The position numbers were made by a program, and so were the translations under genes. This document shows, in pieces, positions 8,654 to 35,318 of a DNA stretch of 64,000 bases (the stretch's first letter is position 1; the number at the start of each line of letters is the position of its first letter). Location: assembly GCF_000381005.1 (NCBI RefSeq), contig NZ_KB908380.1:1-64000 (forward strand), read 5' to 3'. This stretch comes from Selenomonas bovis DSM 23594 (GTDB lineage: Bacteria > Bacillota > Negativicutes > Selenomonadales > Selenomonadaceae). The notes below the pieces were generated by a model. The model was given only the letters and a program-made list of their open reading frames with translations, was not told the DNA's origin and ran no database searches.

Positions 8654-8693
8654 GCTGCGCCTGCGGCTTGCGCTCTTGGGGATTTACATAGTA
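8654..8693 (+). repeat. 40-bp repeat, copy 1
   Basis: An exact 40-base match to 8763-8802, 109 bp apart. It begins GCTGCGCCTGCGGCTTGCG and ends GGATTTACATAGTA. The same core occurs, with several differences, inside the MITE-like element at 34383-34420 on the other strand, so this is probably part of a dispersed family. Confidence 0.9.
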
Positions 8694-8700
8694 AACTCAA

Positions 8701-8732
8701 CGCACAAACGTCCACTTTGTGGACATTGTGCG
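8701..8732. other. Interrupted palindrome between the two repeat copies
   Basis: CGCACAA ... TTGTGCG encloses GTCCAC TTT GTGGAC, so nearly all of the 32 bases can pair. Outside it, GGATTTAC (in copy 1) and GTAAATCC (about 8747) form another inverted pair. No T tract follows on either strand, so it looks like part of a repeat element rather than a terminator. Confidence 0.7.
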
Positions 8733-8762
8733 CCCGTCCTTGCAGTAAATCCAACCAATCGC

Positions 8763-8802
8763 GCTGCGCCTGCGGCTTGCGCTCTTGGGGATTTACATAG
8801 TA
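8763..8802 (+). repeat. 40-bp repeat, copy 2
   Basis: The second exact copy of the repeat at 8654-8693. Its right end joins sequence that creates TATGAT at 8801-8806. This copy, unlike copy 1, could therefore act as a promoter for the small gene at 8867. Confidence 0.9.
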
Positions 8803-34289: not shown

Positions 34290-34318
34290 ATTATAGCCCC
34301 TCTGTTTTCATCTGTCAA
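34290..34318 (-). promoter_or_regulatory. Promoter of tRNA-Lys
   Basis: Minus strand: TTGACA (34313-34318), 17 bp spacer, TATAAT (34290-34295), perfect consensus. Confidence 0.9.
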
Positions 34319-34339
34319 CAGTTTTTTCAATATTTTTTG

Positions 34340-34518
34340 AGGAACCGCTGATTAAATGAGGTGCTCCGGATTTACGCGGATGCACTGTATCTCCCTAGGA
34401 GACAAACCGCAGGCGTAGCGGCAAAACGCTCCATCGCGTTTTGTGCTGAGGATTTGTCGACGACGGGAGGACAGTGCAGACGTGTGAAGACGGAGTGCCG
34501 AATTAATCAGTGGTTCCT
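34340..34518. mobile_element. MITE-like element with 16-bp terminal inverted repeats
   Basis: 179 bp with ends AGGAACCGCTGATTAA (34340-34355) and, inverted, AGGAACCACTGATTAA (34503-34518), one mismatch. It has no coding capacity. Inside are AAAACGC TCCATC GCGTTTT (a hairpin near 34425-34444) and, on the minus strand, a core (34383-34420) that resembles the 40-bp repeats at 8654 and 8763. The right end supplies the last base of the truA stop region. No target duplication is obvious. It probably depends on a transposase elsewhere. Confidence 0.7.
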
Positions 34519-35318
34519 TAAGAGGCTGCCGTCGCCTCCTCCCCGTACGCGACGTGCAGCAGATAGAGCCCGTGCGCGGGCGCCGTCGCGCTCGCCTGCG
34601 CGCGGTCGCGCGAGGCGAGGATGCGGTCGATGTCCGCGGGCTGGAGCACGCCGAGGCCGACATTTGCGATGGTGCCCATGAGGTTGCGCACCATGTGGTA
34701 GAGGAACCCGCTGCCGTGGATGCGGCAGGCGAGCAGCCCGGGGCGCTCCTCCTCGAGCGTCGCCTCGTACATCGTGCGCACGGGGCTCATCGGCGCGCCG
34801 CCCGCCGCGCGGAACGCGGAGAAGTCATGCGTGCCGAGGATGCGCGCGAGCGCCGCCCGCATGGCCGCGCAGTCGAGCGGCCTGCGGATGTACCAGGCAT
34901 AGCGCGCGAGCATGGGATCCGGCGTCTCCCCCTGCGCGATGCGGTAGAGATACGTCTTTGAACGCGCGCTGTGACGCGCGGAGAACGTCCGGTCCGCCTC
35001 CCAGGCCTCCTTGACGACGATGTCAGGCGGCAGCAGGCTGTTCGCCGCGCGCGCGATGCGCGAGACGGGGATCGTGCCGTCCGTGAAGAAATTGACCACC
35101 TGCCCGTAGGCGTGGACGCCGGCGTCCGTGCGGCCGGACGCCGCGAGCTCGATGGAGTCGCCGAAGATGCGCGCGAGCTTCTCCTCGAGCACATTCTGCA
35201 CGGCGATGACAGGCGGCGTCTGCCGCTGGAACCCCGCGTAGGCCGTGCCGTCATAGGCGACGCGCAGCGCGATGTTGCGCGCGCGCGCCTTCATCATTTC
35301 CTTATGTTCGCGTTTCAT
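34518..35318 (-). CDS. truA: tRNA pseudouridine synthase A
   Basis: 266 residues. Makes pseudouridine at positions 38-40 of the tRNA anticodon stem. The catalytic Asp is in ASGRTDAGVHA. RVAYDGTAYAGFQRQ at the start and GSGFLYHMVRNLMGT further on are typical. GAGGCGGGCG precedes the ATG. It follows ecfT by 12 bp, as in the usual ecfA1-ecfA2-ecfT-truA order, but rplM-rpsI, which often follow, are replaced by the MITE-like element and tRNA-Lys. Confidence 0.95.
   Translation of the reverse strand: MKREHKEMMKARARNIALRVAYDGTAYAGFQRQTPPVIAVQNVLEEKLARIFGDSIELAASGRTDAGVHAYGQVVNFFTDGTIPVSRIARAANSLLPPDIVVKEAWEADRTFSARHSARSKTYLYRIAQGETPDPMLARYAWYIRRPLDCAAMRAALARILGTHDFSAFRAAGGAPMSPVRTMYEATLEEERPGLLACRIHGSGFLYHMVRNLMGTIANVGLGVLQPADIDRILASRDRAQASATAPAHGLYLLHVAYGEEATAAS

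Follow-up and report, generated by a model that had tools for sequence, protein, structure and literature searches.

A MITE with a predicted full-length hairpin beside truA of Selenomonas bovis and its relatives across Negativicutes

The element between truA and tRNA-Lys and its copies in the genome

The investigated window is a stretch of 64,000 nucleotides from Selenomonas bovis DSM 23594 (contig NZ_KB908380.1, positions 1 to 64,000). Its gap between truA and tRNA-Lys harbors a short, non-coding element with 15-bp terminal inverted repeats, which agrees with the general definition of a MITE and reads GGAACCGCTGATTAAATGAG...GAATTAATCAGTGGTTCC (GGAACC...GGTTCC). The limits were set by comparing copies (Table 1). 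The initial annotation had recognized inverted repeats that enclose non-coding DNA (34340-34518); the repeats are present, but these limits include one flanking base too many on each side. The pairing does not stop at 16 bp but extends far inward and makes the whole element one hairpin; as RNA it is predicted to fold into a single full-length structure of -107.9 kcal/mol (z -12.6, 200 dinucleotide shuffles). A perfect 12/12 match to a sigma-70-type promoter (TTGACA-17-TATAAT; 34290-34318, minus strand) lies upstream of tRNA-Lys at a distance of about 20 bp from the MITE.

Table 1. Coordinates of the MITE copy, its parts and the 109-bp repeat array in the window
Feature	Position	Strand	Basis or remark
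MITE copy, 177 bp	34341..34517	+ (AATGAG-type end on left)	copy alignment, fold
Left terminal inverted repeat GGAACCGCTGATTAA	34341..34355	+	end motif matched exactly
Right terminal inverted repeat GGAACCACTGATTAA	34503..34517	-	end motif matched exactly
Left target duplication TTGA	34337..34340	no strand	one mismatch versus right copy
Right target duplication TTAA	34518..34521	no strand	includes truA stop codon (34518-34520, minus)
Apical hairpin CAAAACGC/GCGTTTTG	34422..34443	+	177-bp class; missing in 158-bp class
Stretch similar to 109-bp repeat family (26/36)	34386..34420	-	
Array of a separate 109-bp repeat family, 1.37 units	8654..8802	+	not part of the MITE family

A DNA search of the genome (2.69 Mb, 75 contigs) with the element retrieved at least 43 long matches. 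Allowing up to two mismatches, the end motif GGAACCRCTGATTNA was counted 163 times in forward and 169 times in reverse orientation (332 in all), compared with 5 and 7 occurrences (12) of the reversed control. Half of the 332 end motifs corresponds to an estimated number of about 160 elements in the genome, which are dispersed and have the same end motif. Two size classes of 174-178 bp and 157-161 bp can be distinguished, whose main difference is the apical hairpin, and further forms of 27, 43, 89, 232 and 303 bp are present. The 27-bp elements (L061, L066, L071, L073, L076) consist of the two fused ends and nothing else; perfect 4-bp duplications surround three of these five, an indication that no more than the ends is needed for movement. 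A 72-bp element at L062:1152-1223 exhibits similar but distinct ends (AAAACCACTGATACA) and perhaps represents a related family.

The four bases adjacent to both ends were scored in 52 copies and match completely in 36, at three positions in 11 and at two positions in 5, compared with complete matches in 0.7% at control offsets. The duplication has the consensus YTAR and is mostly TTAA (TTAA 13, CTAA/TTAG 9, TCAA/TTGA 4, TAAA/TTTA 3, others single); adjoining elements have one TTAA in common (L086, L089). An insertion preference for stop codons was rejected, as the contact rate of 9 out of 94 sides shows no excess over that of any YTAR site (94 out of 1039). Empty sites are documented within the genome and in a relative. 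Two copies (L012, L018) lie inside another repeat with a doubled TTAA, and the same repeat is uninterrupted in L077. A further copy (L027) interrupts a unit of the repeat type found at 8.7 kb, and a unit of this type without the MITE is present in L034. The orthologous truA/tRNA-Lys gap of the sister genome G005 lacks the element; its flanks match at about 87-91% and are separated by about 12 bases, with a junction that is not base-exact and in which a recognisable TTAA has not been kept. The many copies with common ends, the 4-bp target duplications and the paralogous and orthologous empty sites bear out the MITE reading of the initial annotation, and the assignment of the window element to a MITE family is strongly supported.

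Relatives across Negativicutes and the fold of the hairpin

Motif counts in 120 related genomes, with one mismatch allowed, revealed a patchy distribution. The own genome contains 219 motifs and one of six congeners 20, and most of the 120 genomes are at background; counts of 148, 82, 58, 55, 38 and 36 were obtained in other genera of the family, and genomes of another family of the class Negativicutes reached 219 and 115. An exact longer pattern matched a MAG of Mitsuokella and MAGs of Selenomonas, S. bovis among them, in a scan that may exclude records of the own genome. A 160-bp copy with a TAAA duplication was found on one viral contig, and the searched plasmid and phage collections contained no real match. 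The copies from three genomes (G012, G019, G081) are mostly 155-164 bp long and have the same asymmetric ends; those of G012 measure 160-200 bp, and G019 harbors many shorter forms. Contigs of G012 that end inside elements were considered as collapsed long IS, which was rejected when they proved to end in MITEs of 160-200 bp.

Sixteen copies from across the class align over their full length with a mean identity of 57%. In the structure predicted from this alignment 93.8% of the cells are paired, a value biased upward by the use of one alignment for both prediction and evaluation. Stronger evidence for the hairpin than this percentage is provided by the compensatory changes, with both sides changed in 25 of the 47 pairs and a covariation of 0.488, compared with 0.223 in shuffles and 0.154 or less when slid. 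Taking together the copies, ends, duplications, empty sites and covariation of the hairpin, all of which were demonstrated, we regard it as highly probable that the element belongs to an old, class-wide MITE family of Negativicutes, whose copy number is raised in some genomes and at background level in most, and in which compensatory change has kept the body as a full-length hairpin. Three observations speak against this explanation, namely, the search with four Pfam models, which gave no autonomous partner, the imperfect duplication of the window copy (TTGA/TTAA), and the G005 junction without a recognisable TTAA.

The two strands of the hairpin are not equivalent. The plus strand, with the AATGAG-type end on the left, folds better than the minus strand in 40 of 41 copies of the own genome (mean difference 25 kcal/mol), the exception being an end-duplicated copy with a tied orientation call, and the same applies to all 16 aligned copies across the class. 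The strand difference is small in five further copies of G081, which are shorter or more decayed. G-U pairs on one of the strands account for this asymmetry, which may reflect a constraint at the RNA level; the G-U pairs may also stem from shared ancestry or from strand-biased C-to-T change. A hairpin that was spread by transposition and is now kept by the host for an RNA function of one strand at gene ends, as a terminator, mRNA stabiliser or RNase III site, would be in line with the better fold of the plus strand and the covarying pairs across the class. Yet copies lie in either orientation relative to their neighbouring genes (14 same versus 11 opposite), stop codons are contacted at the rate of any YTAR site, a terminator-like site was looked for in the window copy and not found, an Rfam search with the element gave nothing, and the G-U pairs have the other potential sources named above. 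We consider such a host function unlikely. To a similar degree we doubt that the family is an orphan TTAA-inserting element of the whole class whose hairpin would be selected as RNA of one defined strand, with a transposase outside the searched types and either an RNA-level function of its own or an RNA-level control of its movement. In the favored scenario of a class-wide MITE family, the hairpin would be transcribed only via read-through from neighbouring genes.

The 109-bp repeats at 8.7 kb

The initial annotation also proposed that the repeats at 8654 and 8763 are partial copies of the same dispersed family, based on their resemblance to the minus strand of the element. The resemblance exceeds chance but is weak: the best local alignment between the MITE and the repeat is short, comprising 36 bp with 26 matches, and scores higher than dinucleotide shuffles (p 0 to 0.007 in six tests that varied the scoring and used either the copy or a consensus, 300 shuffles each; alignment chosen by eye), and a 13-bp motif (GCTNCGCCTGCGG) is exactly common to both. 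The 34-kb copy has the minority variant CGCAGGCG, which is also carried by the 158-bp class; compared with CGGAGGCG, the consensus of the 177-bp class, this variant looks closer to the repeats at 8 kb. The repeats at 8654 and 8763 nevertheless represent a second high-copy family of dispersed 109-bp units in tandem arrays of 1-2.5 (loci L031-L060), with other boundaries and without GGAACC ends; its right end is fairly constant (GGGGATTTACATAG(T/C)A), and the left end is more variable. Common ends and alignability over the full length are lacking, the 36-bp match does not have end, length or duplication in common between the families, and the MITE copy L027 sits inside a 109-bp unit. A single family with these repeats as partial copies is accordingly very improbable, and the 36-bp similarity may at most, and tentatively, be attributed to a short common module or to convergence of hairpin sequence. 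Several 109-bp arrays directly adjoin apparent rho-independent terminators (e.g. L035, L038, L044, L052).

The remotest of the alternatives, which we give hardly any credence, is a palindrome of the REP/REPIN type mobilized by a RAYT (Y1) transposase: the elements are palindromic, of high copy number and often near gene ends, but they exhibit clear 4-bp target duplications, which Y1-type movement is not known to make, and a 160-177-bp body with conserved ends.

The search for a transposase and comparison with known systems

The MITE would be moved by a DDE-type transposase. The ends of the IS5 family differ from those of the MITE. We infer a partner of the IS5 or IS701 kind, since IS5 elements generate a 4-bp YTAR target duplication (PMC10359306), the same as that of the MITE, and the IS701 family makes a highly conserved duplication of exactly 4 bp (PMC2266710), a length likewise found here. 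The models PF13546, PF01609, PF05598 and PF13586 were used to search for this partner in the own genome, in amplified relatives or in both, and the ends were checked at the loci. No transposase with the MITE's ends was detected with these four Pfam models; contigs below 3 kb were masked in the own genome, and the absence of a partner from it is therefore not proven. The own genome contains no PF01609 or PF05598 gene with such ends and gave zero matches to PF13586, and its single PF13546 copy was rejected as partner due to its different ends (TCAAACTTCCCACAT). PF01609 is absent from the amplified genome G012, and the PF13546 genes of three relatives have no MITE-type ends nearby. The Pfam matches examined were dismissed as IS701-like or IS1182-like with other ends, or as lacking an end motif nearby, and no IS5-family transposase gene with ends in common was found among them.

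Two further loci were recorded. A transposase gene with internal stops is located between IS1182-like inverted ends at L083 (own genome, C11:73796-75175), and the window contains a transposase-like gene of 350 aa with an integrase core (rve, PF00665; 31663-32715, minus strand), beside which there are no GGAACC ends.

The family is ordinary in kind and comparable to MITEs of the ERIC and Correia type. The target duplication of both ERIC and Correia elements is TA, whereas that of the present family is the 4-bp YTAR. ERIC sequences of Enterobacteriaceae/Vibrionaceae are likewise short non-coding palindromes that occur over a wide taxon with marked differences in abundance (30 to 711 copies per genome; PMC10969869). 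This likeness is one of kind only; the sequence and the bacterial class of the hosts differ, and the MITE measures about 160-177 bp compared with the 127 bp stated for ERIC (PMC2759123). The Correia elements of Neisseria are likewise MITEs that form RNA hairpins, and RNase III cleaves their transcripts at the inverted repeats (PMC10969869); their ends and target duplication differ from those of the present MITE, whose hairpin is known here from sequence and predicted fold.

Papers searched for the end sequence gave unrelated matches only, and no relevant paper joining MITEs with Selenomonas or Negativicutes was retrieved; within this limited literature search, the family is apparently undescribed so far. 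What sets it apart is mainly how broadly it occurs across a class, along with its covarying hairpin and the missing transposase. The analysis defines an ERIC-like interspersed repeat for Negativicutes, comprising relatives in Selenomonadaceae and at least one further family, and gives its exact ends, its target rule and a structure backed by covariation. This can aid annotation, help to explain breaks in assemblies and serve as a marker for typing.
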